A program made the translations under genes and the position numbers. A DNA stretch of 64,000 nucleotides from Maridesulfovibrio sp. (lineage in GTDB: Bacteria > Desulfobacterota > Desulfovibrionia > Desulfovibrionales > Desulfovibrionaceae). Shown in pieces: positions 56,445 to 63,060 of the stretch (positions within the stretch are counted from its first letter, which is position 1; each line of letters opens with the position of its first letter). Location of the stretch: assembly GCF_963677005.1 (NCBI RefSeq), contig NZ_OY781616.1:372001-436000 (forward strand), in the 5' to 3' direction. The notes below the pieces were generated by a model that saw nothing but the letters and a program-made list of their open reading frames with translations, searched no databases and was not told the origin of the DNA.

Positions 56445-56795
56445 TTAGAAATTGAATACTTTTGCATCTGCCGCCATGTCGATGAGGTGGGGGCCGCCGT
56501 CCAACTGCATGTTTGAATGAAATGTAGCTTCGTCTAAATTGCGGTTGTTGGCGCACGGAGTACAAATGCCCGTCTTCACTTCATTCTCGATCAGGTAAGG
56601 CAGATAATCCTGAGGACAATCTCCTGTAGTTGTCTTCCGGGTCAAATCCCTGCCTGTGACCGCCCATTCTACGCCGCCGTCAATGAAGAACATATCCACA
56701 TGATGCCCTTTACTGTGAGCGATCTTAGCGAATTGAAAGCATCTGGTTGCAGCTTCATTGTCATCTTTACTCAGCACAAATAAAAAATTAGCCAT
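56445..56795 (-). CDS. DsrE-family protein
   Basis: 116 residues, a single DsrE/TusD-like alpha/beta domain: NFLFVLSKDDNEAATRCFQFA at the start, DMFFIDGGVEWA and a CTPC pair (Cys78, Cys81) in TGICTPCANNR. Members bind or transfer sulfane sulfur. It is its own unit, separated from the nitrogenase-like operon on the same strand by a 300-bp gap with a hairpin. A link to that operon is only suggested by position. Confidence 0.82.
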   Translation of the reverse strand: MANFLFVLSKDDNEAATRCFQFAKIAHSKGHHVDMFFIDGGVEWAVTGRDLTRKTTTGDCPQDYLPYLIENEVKTGICTPCANNRNLDEATFHSNMQLDGGPHLIDMAADAKVFNF

Positions 56796-57097
56796 GATAT
56801 CTCCCGTGATTTGTCTCGGTTATTCTGATCAGCATAAATACTAACCAATTAGAAGGTGCATAGCATAATATGCTGTATACAGGAACAGATTCGGTGAAGT
56901 GGTAATAGCTGACCGAAAGAGTAGATAAATTCGATTTTATTTCCGGTGCGGCTCAAGCTGCGGTGCTGTTTGATTAAATCATATGTGATAGTGAAGGCAT
57001 TACTGTTGAGCAGAAAAATTTATCATGGAAGCGATATGTTTTCTGTATCGGAGCAAGTCGTTAAAGACTTGCTCCGATACTATAAGGGTGTATGTTT
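56796..57097. other. Gap after the nitrogenase-like operon
   Basis: 300 bp; carries the hairpin at 57045-57080 and probably the promoter of the DsrE-like gene. No gene seen. Confidence 0.5.
57045..57080 (-). terminator. Strong hairpin downstream of the nitrogenase-like operon
   Basis: A perfect 15-bp inverted repeat (57045-57059 with 57066-57080), 6-base loop, 18 bp past the stop of the last gene. The downstream T tract is poor, but its position fits a terminator. Confidence 0.75.
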
Positions 57098-58300
57098 TTA
57101 GTCTTCCAACAGGCGTGAAGCCAGATACTCATATCCTTTGTCCGCCAGGTATTCATATTCCATATCCCAATGAATTCTTGCACTCATGGCAGTGTGGGGA
57201 ACCGGAATGAATGAGGTGTCCCCTGCAAGCATGGAACGGTAGCACGGGTCGGCTATAATTAAATCCACGTCCGGATCGTTCATCAGCTTTTCTATCTGTT
57301 TTTCATCATCGGTGCTGAGGTCGCCCGGACCTTGCTCGACCAGCGTTCCCCTGCACCCTTCGTAGTCGAGAAAGAGCGCTCCACTTGGGGTGACGGAAAC
57401 CACGTCCACTCTGTCCATTCCGAAATCATGGGCTAAAGAGTATTTTATCCCGTAGCTGAGCACCGGTTCGCCTATAATCACGGCGTGCTTGTATTTGGTG
57501 TATTCACTTATTTTGGATGGGATGGGGGTGTCTCCCTCAAGTATGTCCATAAATGCGTTACACCCTGCCAGCCCCACCGGCATACCCACTACAAAGGGAA
57601 TTCCATAATCCTTAAACATGCGGTTTGCCAGATCCAGTCCGCTTGTGGATACAACGGCGTTAATTTCGGCGCCGGGGGCTTTGCGGATTCCTTCAAGCGG
57701 GTCGTTCTGTTCCGGTAGCGAGCCCGAGAAGTTCCCGACTATCTTGTAATTATTTTCGCTCAGTATATCTGTCAGTGGCTGGAAATGCGTCTCCTTGCCG
57801 GTGGAAAGGTGGATAGCCCCCAGAATGTTGATGCCGCCGGAAATTTTGGGTGTATCCGGGTCCATGAATCTGTCGGCAAGAGAGAGGAATGCTTTGGACG
57901 CACCTTCGGGATACGGTTCCGAACCGGCCGTAGGCACCATGAACACGGGTATGTCGATGCGTGATTCTATTGTCCGGGCAAAACCTTTGAGATCGGTTCC
58001 GATTATTTCGGAGATCGGGGTTCCGGTCAGAGCCACGAACCTGGAGTTCAGCCCTTTGGCCGTATCCACGATATTGTCGATGAATTTGTTGTCGTTTCCA
58101 AGGATGACGTCCATTTCCAGAAGTCCTGCGCCCACTACTGTGGCCGGGCCCCTGTACCATCGCGGCTCATCTTCGATGTTTATGTGCCATGCTCCGCCGG
58201 CCGGTCCGTATACAACAACAAGTCCTTCGAAATCGTATAATGCCGAACTGGCCCCGAAATAGCCTGTGGCTAAGGGGAGAAGGTGATGATATTCTTGCAT
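57098..58300 (-). CDS. NifK-like component of a nitrogenase-like reductase, cluster cysteines lost
   Basis: 400 residues, shorter than NifK. The family frame is recognisable: VVYGPAGGAWHI where nitrogenase has GPxGC, and LTGTPISEIIGTDLKGF where it has a Cys before the ExxGDD-type loop. Both positions, and the expected N-terminal Cys, are not Cys here, so this subunit cannot give P-cluster-type thiolates; an Asp ligand, as in DPOR's BchB, is possible. Cys occur only further on (AGC, EGC, DPC). Last gene of the operon, 9 bp after the NifD-like gene. Presumed partner subunit of the NifD-like protein. Confidence 0.8.
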   Translation of the reverse strand: MQEYHHLLPLATGYFGASSALYDFEGLVVVYGPAGGAWHINIEDEPRWYRGPATVVGAGLLEMDVILGNDNKFIDNIVDTAKGLNSRFVALTGTPISEIIGTDLKGFARTIESRIDIPVFMVPTAGSEPYPEGASKAFLSLADRFMDPDTPKISGGINILGAIHLSTGKETHFQPLTDILSENNYKIVGNFSGSLPEQNDPLEGIRKAPGAEINAVVSTSGLDLANRMFKDYGIPFVVGMPVGLAGCNAFMDILEGDTPIPSKISEYTKYKHAVIIGEPVLSYGIKYSLAHDFGMDRVDVVSVTPSGALFLDYEGCRGTLVEQGPGDLSTDDEKQIEKLMNDPDVDLIIADPCYRSMLAGDTSFIPVPHTAMSARIHWDMEYEYLADKGYEYLASRLLED

Positions 58301-58309
58301 ATCTGATCC

Positions 58310-59608
58310 TTATATAAGAAAATCGTGGGCGTAGATCCAATCGTAGTTGTCGACCGGATTTTCCATTGCTTCGCAGGTTTGTTCCAGCATCCAGCCGGTG
58401 GCTTCATAGCCGTATTTCTGTTCCTGATAGCGCGAGAGGGGGACGTTGACCGCATTGGTGCAGAATATACCTGCATCAACTCCGTAGGCCACATCGATGT
58501 GGTCGAAGGTGGAGGTCTGTCCGCACAGGGCTGGATGTGAGGCGTTGTAGACCTGAATATCCGGTTTGATCGTGCGTAGCTGTTCAATTAATTTCCATTC
58601 ATAGGGCTTGATGGTTCCCCGCGCAAACATGGTATCAACATTGATGCCGTTCTCCACAAGAAAGAGGGTCAGTTCGAAGGGGCTGCCGTTGATGCTGCAT
58701 CCGACCGCGACTGATTTACTGCGCAGTTTATCCAGCATCGGTTGAGCGGCTTTTTGGGCATCGGCCGCAATTTCATCCACATACAGTTCTTTGCCCACCG
58801 CATCGCCGACAAGTTCATATTGTTTTTTGATGGTCGAAAAACCATACGAGGTGGGTGCAAAGCAGGTGGGGATGTCCATTTCACTTTCCAGCTTTCCGCT
58901 TAATCCGTTGGCCAGAGGATGAAGTACCACCGAAGCCCGCGCATGGGCCATGCGGGAGAAGGTTTCCAGGTCCGGGCAAAGCGGAATCTGGACTACGTCA
59001 TTTAATCCTGCGGCTGAAAGAACCTGATAGAATTCCCCGGAATCGGACAATGGCATGAAGGTTCCGAGCAGATTGATCCGGTTTTCCTCCGGGTTGCGCT
59101 CTTCGTGTTTGAGAAATTCATAAAAGGAAGTATAGGCTGAAGTGAACGGAGATTCCTTGAGCCCGATGGTGATTGGCGCCATGGCTCCGAGAATGATCCG
59201 TTTGCCGGTGGATTTTTCCAGCCGTTTTATTACTCCGGTAAAATCCGTGCCGAGTATGTAGTCCGGACAGCCGACAATGAGAAAGGCGACTTTTTCTTCC
59301 CGGCGCGAGAGAATATCCGCCATGCCCTGTTCCACTTTGGGTAAATGGTTGCCCATGGACATATCCAGTTCCGACAGGCAGAGCATGTGGAAACGTTCGG
59401 TGAATCCCCTTGCGTGGGCCATGAATGCGGAATGGCGCAGGCAGGCCGAGGGGCCGATCATGATTGCCACGGACTGAGGAAGCAACAGGCAGGTCTCAAT
59501 CACGCCCCATCCGGCCAGGTTCGGGCCGACGCCCTCAAGCGGTGCAAAAGGGAAATCTGATTTTTCCCGAAGCTGTTCCACCCTTATCCGGGTGTCATCC
59601 AAATTCAT
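58310..59608 (-). CDS. NifD-like component of a nitrogenase-like reductase
   Basis: 432 residues from ATG 59606-59608 (AGGAG seven bases upstream; a longer frame has no support). Three Cys sit at the positions that bind the Fe-S cluster in this superfamily: Cys40 in VIETC, Cys56 in IGPSAC and Cys114 in IVGCPDYILGTDF. The GxxPDYxxGTDF loop matches the family loop after the third Cys. With only three thiolates here and none in the partner, one [4Fe-4S] cluster per half is likely, as in DPOR, rather than a P-cluster. Cofactor ligands of true NifD (Cys275, His442) have no obvious equivalents. Substrate unknown. Confidence 0.82.
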   Translation of the reverse strand: MNLDDTRIRVEQLREKSDFPFAPLEGVGPNLAGWGVIETCLLLPQSVAIMIGPSACLRHSAFMAHARGFTERFHMLCLSELDMSMGNHLPKVEQGMADILSRREEKVAFLIVGCPDYILGTDFTGVIKRLEKSTGKRIILGAMAPITIGLKESPFTSAYTSFYEFLKHEERNPEENRINLLGTFMPLSDSGEFYQVLSAAGLNDVVQIPLCPDLETFSRMAHARASVVLHPLANGLSGKLESEMDIPTCFAPTSYGFSTIKKQYELVGDAVGKELYVDEIAADAQKAAQPMLDKLRSKSVAVGCSINGSPFELTLFLVENGINVDTMFARGTIKPYEWKLIEQLRTIKPDIQVYNASHPALCGQTSTFDHIDVAYGVDAGIFCTNAVNVPLSRYQEQKYGYEATGWMLEQTCEAMENPVDNYDWIYAHDFLI

Positions 59609-59648
59609 ATCTGTTCTCCTGTGTTGGCGGTGCCTTGATAATATCCGG

Positions 59649-60401
59649 TTATTCGGCGAAATTAATGATGGTCCGGGCCAGATCAAAAAAACGTTCCGAA
59701 GTAGGCTGGGTCCTGTCTCCTTCCACGATGGTTTTTCCTTCCTCCTCAAATTTGTGAATAGTCGTATCCCGAGGGATGACGCCGATAATGGAGGTATCCA
59801 TCCTGTGGGCGAATTCCTTCACCCGTTCCACTTCATCGGCCATGTCCCGGCAGTTGAGGATCAGCCCGCCAAGTTCGGCGTAGTTGCGGTCCGCGAAGTT
59901 GCGAAGGGCCAGAATGATGTTTTCGGCGGCCAGCAGGGCCATTTTTTCTCCGGAAGTGACAATACAGACCTTGTCTGCGAATCCTTCGCGCATTGGTACG
60001 GCAATTCCTCCGCATACGACATCGGCCAGAATGTCATAGAGGACCACATCCGGTTTGTAGATATCGTAGGCGTTCATTTCATCAAGCAGGTCGAAAGCTG
60101 TAAGCATTCCCCGGCCGAAACAGCCCACGCCCGGAGTGGGACCGCCTATCTCCATGCAGGTGACATTGCCGAAACCTTTCTGGGCGATGGCGTCCAGGGT
60201 TTCCGGTTTTCCATGCTCCTGAAGGTATTGCAGGATGGGCGGCGGGGGAGTGCCTCCAAGCAGGTTGATGGTCGAGTCTGTTTTGGGGTCACAACCCAGT
60301 TGCATGACGTTATGACCGTTCAGTCCCAGCGCGGCTGAAATGCCGGAGGTTACTGTCGACTTGCCTATGCCGCCCTTGCCGTAAATGGCTACCTTGATCA
60401 A
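59649..60401 (-). CDS. NifH-like ATP-dependent reductase
   Basis: 250 residues, TTG start overlapping the stop of the radical SAM gene by four bases, with AGGAG seven bases upstream. P-loop GKGGIGKST (9-17), GCDPKTDST, and both bridging-cluster cysteines: Cys94 in GVGCFGRG and Cys130 in DVVCGG. It should form a homodimer with a [4Fe-4S] cluster and pass electrons to the D/K-like complex with ATP hydrolysis. A Phe replaces the usual Ala after Cys94. The 250-residue length fits BchL/CfbC-type proteins. Confidence 0.92.
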   Translation of the reverse strand: MIKVAIYGKGGIGKSTVTSGISAALGLNGHNVMQLGCDPKTDSTINLLGGTPPPPILQYLQEHGKPETLDAIAQKGFGNVTCMEIGGPTPGVGCFGRGMLTAFDLLDEMNAYDIYKPDVVLYDILADVVCGGIAVPMREGFADKVCIVTSGEKMALLAAENIILALRNFADRNYAELGGLILNCRDMADEVERVKEFAHRMDTSIIGVIPRDTTIHKFEEEGKTIVEGDRTQPTSERFFDLARTIINFAE

Positions 60402-61408
60402 AGTGTTGCTCCTTGCAGTTTGAGTGAATGGCCTTTGGTATGGTTTTCCGTCCTTCCGGCCCGAGCCAGCACGTTTCTCGCTTCATCCACGGAAACATAG
60501 CGCTTGTGGGTGGTAATCTGGAATTCATATTCGATTTTGTCTGTCTTGCTTTTTAAAAACGGATTGCAATTTGGCATCACAACATTGGCTCCGCCCTTGG
60601 TGAGTGCCTTGAATTGCCCGTTGTCCGGGTCCAGTGTGGCAACTGTGTTTGCTGCGGCTATATGCGAGTTGCCCGTGACTATCCTTGTAAGCGCGAAAGT
60701 CCTGAGCATCAGGTCCATATCGCCTGCTGGATCATCTTTTAGCGGTGTCTGGGCATGGGGAATGAAGGGACCTATGTTGATCATGTCCGGCTGGAAGTCC
60801 TGAAAAAAGAGAATGTCTTCACACAGGTCTTCCGGTGTCTGGCCCGGCAACCCGACTATATTCCCCACGCCGACCTGAAAACCGAGTTCGCGCAGCGTGT
60901 CGATGAGCCGCAGGCGGTCGACCAGTTTGAGGCCTGATCTCATGCGTGAATAGAGATCGGAATTCATGGTTTCATGTTTCATGAGATAACGCTCGGCACC
61001 GGCGCTTCTGAAGGCGGCGTAATCTTCACGGGAGCGCTGTCCCAGGCTCAAGGTTACGGCCACATCCGCTTTTCCCATGATGCGTTCGACTATGGAGCAG
61101 ATTGTTGATCGAGTGAAATGCGGGTCTTCTCCAGATTGCAGAACCACAGTCTTAAGCCCCGCCTCGGCAATGGACAGGGCTGTCTCGACAATTTGGTCTT
61201 CGGTCATACGGAAGCGTTTACACTGGTCATTGTCCTTCAGGAGTCCGCAGTAGATGTCGTTACACCGGCAGTAGTTTGAAAAGTGCACCACTCCGCGTAG
61301 TTGGGCCGTATCTCCAACCTGATCCCGGCGTACCCGGTCCGCCTTTTCAAACAGAGTTTCCTGTCCGGATTCATCCAGAAGGGCGTCAAGAATATCTTTT
61401 CTATTCAT
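60398..61408 (-). CDS. HydE/BioB-like radical SAM protein with rearranged cluster motif
   Basis: 336 residues, ATG after GGAAG. It resembles HydE/PylB/BioB proteins: VVHFSNYCRCN, LQSGEDPHF, LSLGQRS, VGVGNIVGLPGQT, NIGPFIPHAQTPL and ANTVATLDP. The usual C-x3-C-x2-C is C47-R-C49-N-D51-I-Y-C54: first and third Cys keep their spacing, but Asp is at the second Cys position and a Cys sits two residues earlier. It may build a cofactor for the hydrogenase-like or nitrogenase-like partners. Second gene of the operon. Confidence 0.88.
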   Translation of the reverse strand: MNRKDILDALLDESGQETLFEKADRVRRDQVGDTAQLRGVVHFSNYCRCNDIYCGLLKDNDQCKRFRMTEDQIVETALSIAEAGLKTVVLQSGEDPHFTRSTICSIVERIMGKADVAVTLSLGQRSREDYAAFRSAGAERYLMKHETMNSDLYSRMRSGLKLVDRLRLIDTLRELGFQVGVGNIVGLPGQTPEDLCEDILFFQDFQPDMINIGPFIPHAQTPLKDDPAGDMDLMLRTFALTRIVTGNSHIAAANTVATLDPDNGQFKALTKGGANVVMPNCNPFLKSKTDKIEYEFQITTHKRYVSVDEARNVLARAGRTENHTKGHSLKLQGATL

Positions 61409-61434
61409 CTTCCAAGTTCCTTTGGCGTTATGGG

Positions 61435-63060
61435 CTAGGCTGCGGTCACGGTTGTCAGACCTGTGTTATGGTCTTCGATCAATACGTAGCAGGTGTTGCA
61501 TGGGTCCAGTTCATGTAGAGTCCTCAGGATTTCCACAGGATATTCCGGGTTTGATACCGGTGTCCCCATAAGGGCGTGTTCCAAAGGACCGGGCTCACCC
61601 CTGCTGTCGCGTGGAGAAAAATTCCATAATGATGGAATCAGATATTCGTGCTTGGTTATTTGTTTCCGATCCCAGTGTACGGTGTGAGTAAGAATACCCC
61701 GTGGCACGTCTACACGGCCTATCCCGGTTCCTTCTGCGGGTAGGGAGAAATCAACGTGATGCCGGTTTTCTGTTGTTACAAGAGATTCAAGTTTGTCCAC
61801 GCTGCTGCAAATAGAATCCATCAAAGCGGAGGACTCTATCCCACGGGACAGGACTCTGCCCATCATGGAAGTCATGTCTTTAATGGATATTCCACAGTCA
61901 CATGAAACGCGCAAAAAAGTCTGCTGCATTACGCTTTGCTCAGCACTTAAGTCGCAAAGAACTCGTGCCAGCGGTCCCACTTCGCACGCCAGATTTTTAT
62001 GGCGCGGGGCAGGCAGCCAAAAAGAACGGGGGGCATTCCAGCTGAACAAAGGTCTGTCCTGTTTGGCGGATAGCCGATAGTTTCGGCGGTCCATGTCATT
62101 CCACTGTGGTTCACATTCTTCCCGGACGACCGGATTTTCGTAGCGGGAGAGTTCCCATGGTGCCGTCTGATCCTTTGAAATTTTCAATTTGCAGGTTGTT
62201 TCGTTCGCATACGCCATGAAAGATGTATTTTTACCCAGGCTGACCAAATGTGGATAGGCTTTAGCAAGCCTCGCCAAGTCTGAAGGGAAGGTTTTACAGA
62301 TGAATGCCCGGCACTCTTCAAGGTGGGCGCGTAGTTCTTCAACGGTTGCTGCGTTTAAATTCAAGTCGGCGGGGAGCCCTCCTATGTGGTAGGCTTTGAA
62401 CTCCTTCGGGGTGCAGCCCAGCAGTTTTAAGGCTTTTTGCAGGGAAAAACCGGCTTGCACAGATGAAAAAGCATGTCCGTGAAGCAGCAGGTGTAATTCT
62501 TCCCGGCCGCTGTATTCTCCATAACTATGTACCGATTTCAGTTCTTTGTCCGCCAGGGGGCGGAGATTGTCCTGAACGGAACGAAAGTGAGTTGCATTTT
62601 CTCCCCAGACAGATGTCATGCGGGCTGTTTTAACCGGATCGGCGCGTAGGGCAGCTTTTAAATTTACCCAGTCGGAAAGGTGAAATTGATAGAAATGCTG
62701 CAGGTGCGTCTGAATAAAACGTATGTCTTGAATCAATTCGCGCACTAAGATTGCGCTTTCGGGCAGAACTACGTCGGCGGAATTTTCAACGGCCCTTATT
62801 GCGGCGAGAGTATGGCCGTCATTGCATAGACAGTGTGCTTTGGGAGCGAAACAGAGCCGTCCTTGTCTGTCGTTTTTTCTTTGCAGCAACATATTTATGT
62901 CTCGCATCATGCGTCCGGTGCTCCATGCTTTGTCCACCCGCCCATCTACCAGACGAATACAGGTGACAAATGTGTTGCCCTGACACTGAACAATTTTTTG
63001 AGCGACAGAATCCGGCTTGGCTGGCGATTCGGCCAGACGAACGGCTACGGAATACGGCAT
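61435..63060 (-). CDS. [NiFe]-hydrogenase large-subunit-like protein without small subunit
   Basis: 541 residues, first gene of the operon, ATG with GAGGAGG upstream. Large-subunit signatures: N-terminal L1-like region H76-C77-L-C79-N-D-G-H83 followed by TLAAIRAVENS; L4-like PRGILTH and LWNFSPRD; and C-terminal DPC521NTC524. In hydrogenases L1 is RxCGxCxxxH; here the outer Cys position is His76, with an extra Cys at 77 and another at 70. The residue three after the last Cys is Leu, not the His/Arg used by the maturation protease. No small subunit, Hyp genes or protease are in the window. The metal site is therefore probably changed. Confidence 0.85.
   Translation of the reverse strand: MPYSVAVRLAESPAKPDSVAQKIVQCQGNTFVTCIRLVDGRVDKAWSTGRMMRDINMLLQRKNDRQGRLCFAPKAHCLCNDGHTLAAIRAVENSADVVLPESAILVRELIQDIRFIQTHLQHFYQFHLSDWVNLKAALRADPVKTARMTSVWGENATHFRSVQDNLRPLADKELKSVHSYGEYSGREELHLLLHGHAFSSVQAGFSLQKALKLLGCTPKEFKAYHIGGLPADLNLNAATVEELRAHLEECRAFICKTFPSDLARLAKAYPHLVSLGKNTSFMAYANETTCKLKISKDQTAPWELSRYENPVVREECEPQWNDMDRRNYRLSAKQDRPLFSWNAPRSFWLPAPRHKNLACEVGPLARVLCDLSAEQSVMQQTFLRVSCDCGISIKDMTSMMGRVLSRGIESSALMDSICSSVDKLESLVTTENRHHVDFSLPAEGTGIGRVDVPRGILTHTVHWDRKQITKHEYLIPSLWNFSPRDSRGEPGPLEHALMGTPVSNPEYPVEILRTLHELDPCNTCYVLIEDHNTGLTTVTAA

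Follow-up and report, generated by a model that had tools for sequence, protein, structure and literature searches.

A conserved operon of hydrogenase-like, HydE-like and nitrogenase-like genes as a candidate HydG-replacing branch of [FeFe]-hydrogenase maturation

Five adjacent genes in the genome of Maridesulfovibrio sp. (RefSeq assembly GCF_963677005.1, contig NZ_OY781616.1) probably constitute a branch of [FeFe]-hydrogenase maturation that replaces HydG in the assembly of the H-cluster and is fed by a unit made by the Hyp proteins. In the textbook view, the catalytic centre of [FeFe]-hydrogenases is built by HydE, HydF and HydG acting as one set, with CO and CN derived from tyrosine. In [NiFe] enzymes, the Fe(CN)2CO unit is made by the products of hypC, hypD, hypE and hypF. 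The window analysed here, the whole stretch of 64,000 nucleotides, corresponds to bases 372001-436000 of a one-contig, 4.26-Mb genome, and the five genes lie at its positions 57098-63060 on the minus strand. In order of transcription, their products are a [NiFe]-hydrogenase large-subunit-like protein (HYL; 61435..63060, 541 aa, PF00374 268.6 bits), a HydE-family protein with an altered radical-SAM motif (HydE'; 60398..61408, 336 aa, TIGR03956 268.8 bits), a NifH-like ATP-driven reductase (H; 59649..60401, 250 aa, TTG start, PF00142 259 bits) and two nitrogenase component-1-like subunits (D; 58310..59608, 432 aa, PF00148 88.7 bits; and K; 57098..58300, 400 aa, PF00148 91.9 bits). Successive genes are separated by 26 bp, overlap by 4 bp, and are then separated by 40 and 9 bp. 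A preliminary description, made from the sequence alone, had given these five genes with the same spacings, and the family scores bear out the hydrogenase-like, HydE-like and nitrogenase-like identities it proposed. Two points that it did not mention change the reading: the CX3DX2C motif of HydE', and the loss from HYL of the first cysteine of its CxxC.

Conservation and genomic neighbourhood

Using a profile of 20 D proteins (alignment A1) at a threshold of 1e-40, we detected D in 29 of the 348 genomes of the class. The matches were strong in 19 genomes (at least 728 bits; eight genera, this genome included) and weak in 10 (182-221 bits), all of the latter belonging to one gut-type genus, here g18. 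Within its own genus, 2 of the 17 listed genomes carry D, this one counted, and in a sample of the phylum D was present in 7 of 395 genomes, two of them new thermophiles. The preliminary description would have been refuted by a lack of joint conservation elsewhere, but the genes are conserved together far beyond this genome: the order HYL-HydE'-H-D-K is kept in 18 of 18 further Desulfovibrionaceae loci, a contig end truncating HYL in L009. The order HydE-family-H-D-K is found in all four deeper loci (two Desulfofervidaceae, one Thermodesulfatator and one Desulfobacterales). HYL was not found in the stretches of these four, of which only L015 and L016 are complete upstream; L017 and L018 start inside or near hydE, so that the motif end of their HydE is unreadable, and in L017 about 1 kb lies between D and K. 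The g18 loci contain HydE and two H-D-K sets, without HYL. Matches at the protein level, where the neighbouring genes were not seen, also occur in Thermodesulfobium narugense and Lebetimonas.

Hyd and Hyp proteins from the thermophile and g18 loci served as queries in a search of the neighbourhoods, several of the stretches being cut by contig ends. Among the 18 strong sister loci, hydF was found together with aspA or other hyd genes in eight and a hypC, hypD or hypE gene in eight (in L009 just a 28-bit HypC), with neighbours of either kind present in 12. The thermophile locus L016 reads hydA-hydB-TM1266-hypE-hypC-aspA-hydF-hydE'-H-D-K-hypF-hypD, and in L015 and L016 HydA, TM1266, HydF, HypC, HypD, HypE and HypF score over the NCBIfam cut-offs. 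The g18 locus of G131, which is complete, carries hydA-hydB-TM1266-hydE-hydF-H-D-K-H-D-K-hypF-hypC-hypD-hypE on one strand. All ten g18 loci include hydF (in two pieces in L062), and the other genes were not all seen in each, mostly owing to contig or stretch ends; in L062, no hypC, hypD or hypE follows hypF before the contig end.

A variation was also seen in HydF itself: in the five g18 proteins read (e.g. L068:4496-5704), the iron-sulphur motif CxH...HCxxC takes the form CTHHRQC...LCGGC, in which the histidine before the last cysteine pair is lost and one cysteine is added.

Hydrogenase and maturase genes in genomes with D

Both hydF and hydA were detected in every one of the 29 D-bearing genomes, hydA scoring over the cut-off in 28 and under it in G116. 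It is because of this genome content, together with the neighbourhoods, that we consider H-cluster assembly to be the purpose of the operon. In the class as a whole, hydF is present in 177 of the 348 genomes and HydG exceeds its curated cut-off in 155. With a HydG threshold of E<=1e-100, the hydF-bearing genomes without HydG comprise 24 with D and 16 without, and those with HydG 5 and 132 (Fisher p=1.6e-14). When the curated cut-off is used instead, three g18 genomes become HydG-positive, which brings the D-bearing genomes with HydG to 8 of 29, and the counts change to 21/15 versus 8/133 (p=1.2e-11). Neither p value takes account of relatedness and, the genomes being related, both are overstated.

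In the Maridesulfovibrio genome, no HydG was found over the cut-off, the best match reaching 208.8 bits versus the 312.15 required. The two proteins matching the HydG model are the product of a radical-SAM open reading frame beside a ThiG-like one, and HydE' itself; the neighbour of the best match we recognised as ThiG, and hence we take that match to be ThiH. The genome carries hydF, hydE, aspA, TM1266, hydB and hydA at C1:1914737-1921132, 1.5 Mb from the operon. HydA and HydF of this genome score over their cut-offs, and the HydE of the locus has the CX3CX2C motif. The same locus contains a 201-aa open reading frame between aspA and hydE (L074:10400-11005).

The 16 genomes with hydF and with neither HydG nor D were searched with PF00148 at 1e-8, which returned strong Nif-like sets in only two of them and nothing in 14. 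Eight of the 16 were checked for hydA, which three lack and five have. The latter (G231, G244, G249, G254 and G341) combine hydA and hydF with no HydG over the cut-off and no D, and G341 also has no HydE match at 1e-30; these five cases reflect either assembly gaps or yet another route.

HydE' and its cluster motif

HydE' scores over the TIGR03956 cut-off for HydE (268.8 versus 254.6 bits) and matches a solved HydE with 263 bits. Its cluster motif, CRCNDIYC (61247..61270, minus strand), reads CX3DX2C, the middle cysteine of the CX3CX2C of HydE and radical SAM enzymes being replaced by Asp51. We matched 5822 relatives and counted motifs in the best 120 of them, of which 117 were readable at this site and three were not: the middle position is Asp in 80 and Cys in 37. 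Among these best 120, the Asp types share at least six of the eight further signature residues of HydE' in 79 cases out of 80, and the 37 Cys types belong to ordinary HydE with a single exception. This exception, P0280, has Cys at position 51 together with all eight signature residues, and its sequence would fit a natural intermediate or a reversion. Pocket residues have changed together with the cluster motif (E42H, Y66F, P251A, T253A, T254N, A255T, T282N and Y296F). Compensation of the lost cysteine by a Cys at position 49 was ruled out, this residue being present in only 55 of the 80 Asp types.

In 10 of the 19 HYL-type genomes, HydE' is the sole HydE match (TIGR03956, E<=1e-30), no HydG exceeds the cut-off and hydA is present; seven of these ten genomes are at least 99% complete. 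HydE' is also the sole HydE match in both thermophile genomes, where HydG was not searched. In the seven g18 loci where the motif was read, HydE has CX3CX2C. Either the Asp-ligated cluster of HydE' still does radical chemistry, or the step is done in another way.

Hyp proteins

HypD is present in 44 of the 45 genomes checked. Two hypD genes occur in 15 of 31 D-bearing genomes versus none of the 14 g18 genomes that lack D, and in 13 of these 15 one copy lies close to D on the H-D-K contig (in G116 and G134 it lies on another contig). In a tree of 35 HypD rows, the locus HypD proteins of g18 (8) and of the thermophile G420 (1) make up a single group that excludes the 26 remaining rows, with support of 98/93 and recovery in 97% of bootstrap trees; this grouping carries a long-branch warning. 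There may thus be two solutions, in which loci without HYL would use a dedicated HypD and loci with HYL would admit the ordinary Hyp product through a [NiFe]-like receiver.

In 8 of the 10 D-bearing g18 genomes, we found no [NiFe] large subunit at 1e-10. The argument that Hyp must serve the H-cluster in g18, since [NiFe] enzymes are missing there, is weakened by the retention of HypB in six of these eight genomes and of a second HypD in six.

The hydrogenase-like protein HYL

A HYL profile of 22 homologues (the family search having been run with a query without the start Met) can be aligned with almost the full length of solved [NiFe] large subunits, with 426 bits to 1yq9, and HYL has both the PF00374 fold and the C-terminal DPCxxC of these subunits. 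The two C-terminal metal cysteines are kept as C521 and C524 (CNTC of DPCNxC, aligned to DPCIAC; 61489..61500, minus strand). The region C77-H83 (CLCNDGH; 62812..62832, minus strand), aligned to ACGVCTYVH of 1yq9, has lost the first canonical cysteine of CxxC, keeps C79 and H83 and has a new cysteine, C77. Across the 22 homologue rows, C79, H83, C521, C524 and R454 of the PRG motif are invariant and D130 is kept in 21, and position 76, that of the lost cysteine, is never Cys (H 14, A 4, T 2, N, S). Of the new cysteines, C77 is found in 20 rows and C359 in all 22. We take C79 and C524 to be the cysteines bridging Fe and Ni, and the lost one to be a terminal Ni ligand. In [NiFe] large subunits, a histidine three residues after the last cysteine is the cleavage site and an Mg ligand, and ends the mature protein; in the HYL rows this position is V (13), R (7) or L (2). 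No small subunit gene is present in the five-gene operon, a statement limited to the operon, as no partner search was made in the rest of the genome. With the Ni ligand, the operon small subunit and the processing histidine all missing, HYL as a catalytic [NiFe]-hydrogenase was ruled out. Judged by its residues, HYL has the features expected of a nickel-free carrier of the Fe(CN)2CO half-site and is likely an Fe(CN)2CO scaffold.

The nitrogenase-like trio

H contains the P-loop and GVGC and scores 283 bits against the nifH model (cut-off 394.35). K reaches just 16.5 of 653.55 bits with nifD and 16.1 of 427.3 bits with nifK, and D did not match the nifD or nifK models at 0.1. Matches to the BchL, BchX, BchN, BchB, CfbC and CfbD models are all far under their cut-offs, and H, D and K remain under every curated nitrogenase, DPOR, COR and CfbCD cut-off matched. 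The P-cluster of nitrogenase is held by six cysteines, three per subunit. D has three invariant cysteines (56, 114 and 383; 20 homologues in A1) and K has none (14 homologues in A3), so that the six are not present here; the g18 K proteins keep one Cys in a GC motif. AlphaFold models predict a nitrogenase-type fold for both subunits, with a predicted local distance difference test score of 86.6 for D and 80.2 for K. Among the 50 matches listed for each, nitrogenase, methylthio-alkane reductase (Mar), DPOR and NifEN are matched about equally (template-modelling scores of about 0.6-0.7, 12-19% identity). These models place the fold at the family level only. Of the PDB sequences, the D profile matches Mar best (68 bits; 18-19% identity by fold).

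The tree building proposed in the preliminary description was carried out for H. Among 28 H proteins, those of the window and the thermophiles form a clade (95/93), apart from the four NifH (99/98), and the g18 proteins join them with support that is not firm (90/93); BchL and BchX are too long-branched to be placed. Nitrogen fixation by H/D/K was ruled out, as the trio stays under the Nif cut-offs and the genome has other, far stronger full-length PF00148 genes (C1:3670030-3677906 and C1:4016968-4020095). Tetrapyrrole reduction, as by DPOR, COR or CfbCD, was ruled out by the sub-cut-off scores, the loci not having been searched for tetrapyrrole genes.

The second of these other PF00148 regions (C1:4016968-4020095, L085) is a further nitrogenase-type pair, separate from the main nif-type cluster (3670030-3677906); the product of its own NifH-like gene groups with a NifH of Paraburkholderia. 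Another trio was seen on plasmid pSPTER of Sporomusa termitida (L088:14995-18267), where NifH/D/K-like genes come after an operon for an iron ABC transporter and have genes for TonB-dependent receptors close by. Its H is 53.5% identical to that of the window, and no hydrogenase gene is annotated in that stretch. This different neighbourhood ruled out pSPTER as an instance of the same system.

Proposed route and alternatives

In the known route (PMC11736057), HydG produces Fe(II)(Cys)(CO)2(CN). HydE adenosylates this product and reduces it to Fe(I), and pairing of two units by HydE has been proposed; the bridge is the work of HydF together with the glycine cleavage system and an ammonia-lyase. 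Tyrosine is reported as the source of all five CO and CN ligands (PMC3105041), and HydE, HydF and HydG are described as found in every microorganism with [FeFe]-hydrogenase, and all three as essential (PMC6212873). The survey figures excerpted from PMC3226654 give 200 genomes with HydF, of which 189 have HydE and 179 HydG, and mention a few species with hydrogenase genes but none of the three maturases.

Given that HydG was not found, that Hyp proteins are added, that HydE is altered and that a predicted low-potential reductase is present, we propose as the simplest reading that the Fe unit comes from Hyp and the electrons from H/D/K. HypCDEF would make an Fe(CN)x(CO) unit that HYL would carry, or that loci without HYL would obtain by means of their own dedicated HypD; the predicted ATP-driven H/D/K complex would reduce the carried unit, HydE' would shape or pair the units, and HydF would then hand the cluster to HydA. 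Both the flow of the Fe unit and the bond reduced are what we infer from these parts, and the H/D/K step would most likely be from Fe(II) to Fe(I), which in the known route falls to the radical chemistry of HydE, or the reduction of CO2 or of surplus cyanide, setting the CO:CN ratio. The metabolic origin of CO is called an ongoing debate in the passage of PMC4161419 concerned, with iron-bound CO2 on HypC or HypCD as a possible precursor; HypX, a CO source in the portion cited of PMC6802093, was not taken into the route. A fuller version, which we put forward only tentatively, dispenses with both HydG and a normal radical-SAM HydE in building the H-cluster: Hyp would make cyanide from carbamoyl phosphate, a decommissioned [NiFe] subunit would hold Fe(CN)(CO), the nitrogenase-like complex would reduce it to Fe(I) and the Asp-ligated HydE' would pair the units.

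Several observations weigh against a HydG-replacing branch. HydG is present at E<=1e-100 in five D-bearing genomes (G089, G094, G287, G321 and G328), and the three g18 genomes mentioned above have HydG-model matches of 1e-97 to 1e-99, over the curated cut-off. Matches of similar strength occur in g18 genomes without hydF (G170, G120 and G159), and for this reason we take the latter as a candidate paralogue. The loss of HydG has other explanations too, or is partly an assembly gap: 16 of the 40 hydF-bearing genomes without HydG also lack D, which rules out H/D/K as the answer for every HydG-less genome. The Maridesulfovibrio genome itself has a HydE with the normal motif, another match to HydF and another [FeFe]-type gene (C1:2504922) besides those of the hyd locus, all of which the model leaves unexplained. 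In the window no hyd or hyp gene adjoins the operon. Such neighbours were likewise not seen in 6 of the 18 sister loci, some stretches being cut short by contig ends. As for Hyp, no hypD was found in G301, which has D and lacks HydG; the grouping of locus HypD proteins has its long-branch warning; and the six locus HypD proteins of HYL-type operons are scattered among copies from elsewhere, forming no single group, with that of G285 nearly identical to a copy elsewhere in its genome. Because HypB and a second HypD are kept in most of the g18 genomes without a [NiFe] large subunit match, their Hyp set is perhaps not for the H-cluster alone and may serve a divergent Ech-like enzyme. Finally, we found no biochemistry on these proteins in the literature searched.

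Of the alternatives, the one that survives best, though we regard it as unlikely, is that D/K is mainly a scaffold, as NifEN is for FeMo-co, joining two Fe(CN)(CO) units together with H and HydE' in a role of assembly, not of catalytic reduction. The combination of HydE', H and D/K recalls that of NifB, NifH and NifEN, the best NCBIfam match of K is NifE (40 bits) and its best PDB fold match is NifEN, and the portion of PMC3464626 concerned states that sequence cannot separate the two roles. However, the listed fold matches of D/K include nitrogenase, Mar, DPOR and NifEN alike, with the low identities given above, and HYL and HydF already resemble carriers.

It is much less probable that HYL is the end product, with H/D/K and HydE' building a modified Fe-only or Ni-free site in a new enzyme and the [FeFe]-hydrogenase being a mere neighbour, a view that comes near to that of the preliminary description. 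The retention of D130, of R454 in the PRG motif, of both Fe-bridging cysteines and of the greater part of the fold would suit such an enzyme, as would the HypC/D/E genes adjoining the HYL operon in 8 of the 18 sister loci, but the complete thermophile and g18 loci have H-D-K and no HYL, yet hydA and hydF, both of which occur in all 29 D-bearing genomes, and the operon offers no small subunit. The preliminary description had envisaged a dedicated reductase and cofactor pathway acting on, or through, the hydrogenase-like scaffold. This is still the best reading, except that HYL does not appear to be its end point, because of the [FeFe] neighbourhoods and genome content and the absence of HYL from L015, L016 and the g18 loci. 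There is equally little to recommend the idea that H/D/K supplies the azadithiolate bridge (DTMA) instead of the CO and CN ligands, with Hyp replacing the diatomic supply only: the g18 loci have two H-D-K sets, one of which could make the bridge, and no aspA in the stretches read, but aspA, linked to the nitrogen supply of DTMA in the portion cited of PMC11736057, lies beside hydF in each of the eight HYL-type loci whose stretch includes hydF, and likewise in the two complete thermophile loci.

A HydG-replacing branch would share with HydE-HydF-HydG maturation its target, hydA, and the partners HydF, aspA and TM1266, and would differ from it in that no HydG was found, HydE' has CX3DX2C, and Hyp proteins, HYL and a nitrogenase-like trio are present. 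With HypCDEF maturation of [NiFe]-hydrogenase it has in common the HypC/D/E/F genes of many loci and the resemblance of HYL to the receiver of the Fe(CN)2CO unit, except that HYL lacks one Ni ligand and the C-terminal histidine. Mar, DPOR, NifEN and the Mo, V and Fe nitrogenases have the same architecture of H with D/K and the component-1 fold, and they are set apart by their low identity in the listed matches and by the cysteine pattern of D and K.

The preliminary description, which knew of no described system combining these parts, requires correction to some extent. Dos Santos et al. 2012 remarked in one sentence that NifHEN-like proteins accompany hydrogenase maturation proteins in Coprococcus catus and in other Firmicutes; they saw two closely linked copies in Coprococcus catus and Dorea longicatena, and suggested a possible role in metallocluster assembly (PMC3464626, in the section concerned). 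Those sets, likened here by description only, resemble the g18 loci in their two linked copies, whereas that section mentions neither HydG loss nor a Hyp link, HYL or the Asp motif. The association as such has thus in part been seen before. As far as our searches show, what is new is the loss of HydG, HYL, the Asp motif and the connection to Hyp, and the open-licence PMC literature yielded no description of a HydG-free H-cluster route with these parts.

If the operon is a missing route, the same organometallic cofactor would be reached by joining the ligand factory of [NiFe] enzymes to a nitrogenase-like machine, and nitrogenase-like complexes would gain a job in building a hydrogenase metal centre. 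Escherichia coli, with its own Hyp proteins, could then serve as a chassis for [FeFe]-hydrogenase without HydG. The proposal bears on where anaerobes obtain CO for such metal sites and on the [FeFe]-hydrogenase organisms without hydG, reported without a settled explanation. For some Clostridium acetogens lacking hydG, the hypotheses offered are an atypical HydG or the use of free CO and CN, and neither, as worded in the passage cited, involves nitrogenase-like proteins (PMC9431212).

Other features of the operon region

The preliminary description was right in placing a hairpin at the end of the operon. Directly after K, on the minus strand, lies a hairpin with a 15-bp perfect stem (57045..57080; -27.8 kcal/mol, z -9.1, none of 200 shuffles being equally stable), which is a probable 3' end signal of the operon; it has no T-run and is not among the sites of the terminator scan. 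The single upstream promoter also described there did not reappear: a scan covering the sigma-70 type found none on the minus strand upstream of 63060, and in the whole region it returned 3 sites versus 7.1 expected by chance. Downstream of the operon, on the same strand, the window contains a gene for a DsrE-family protein (56445-56795; PF02635, 64 bits).

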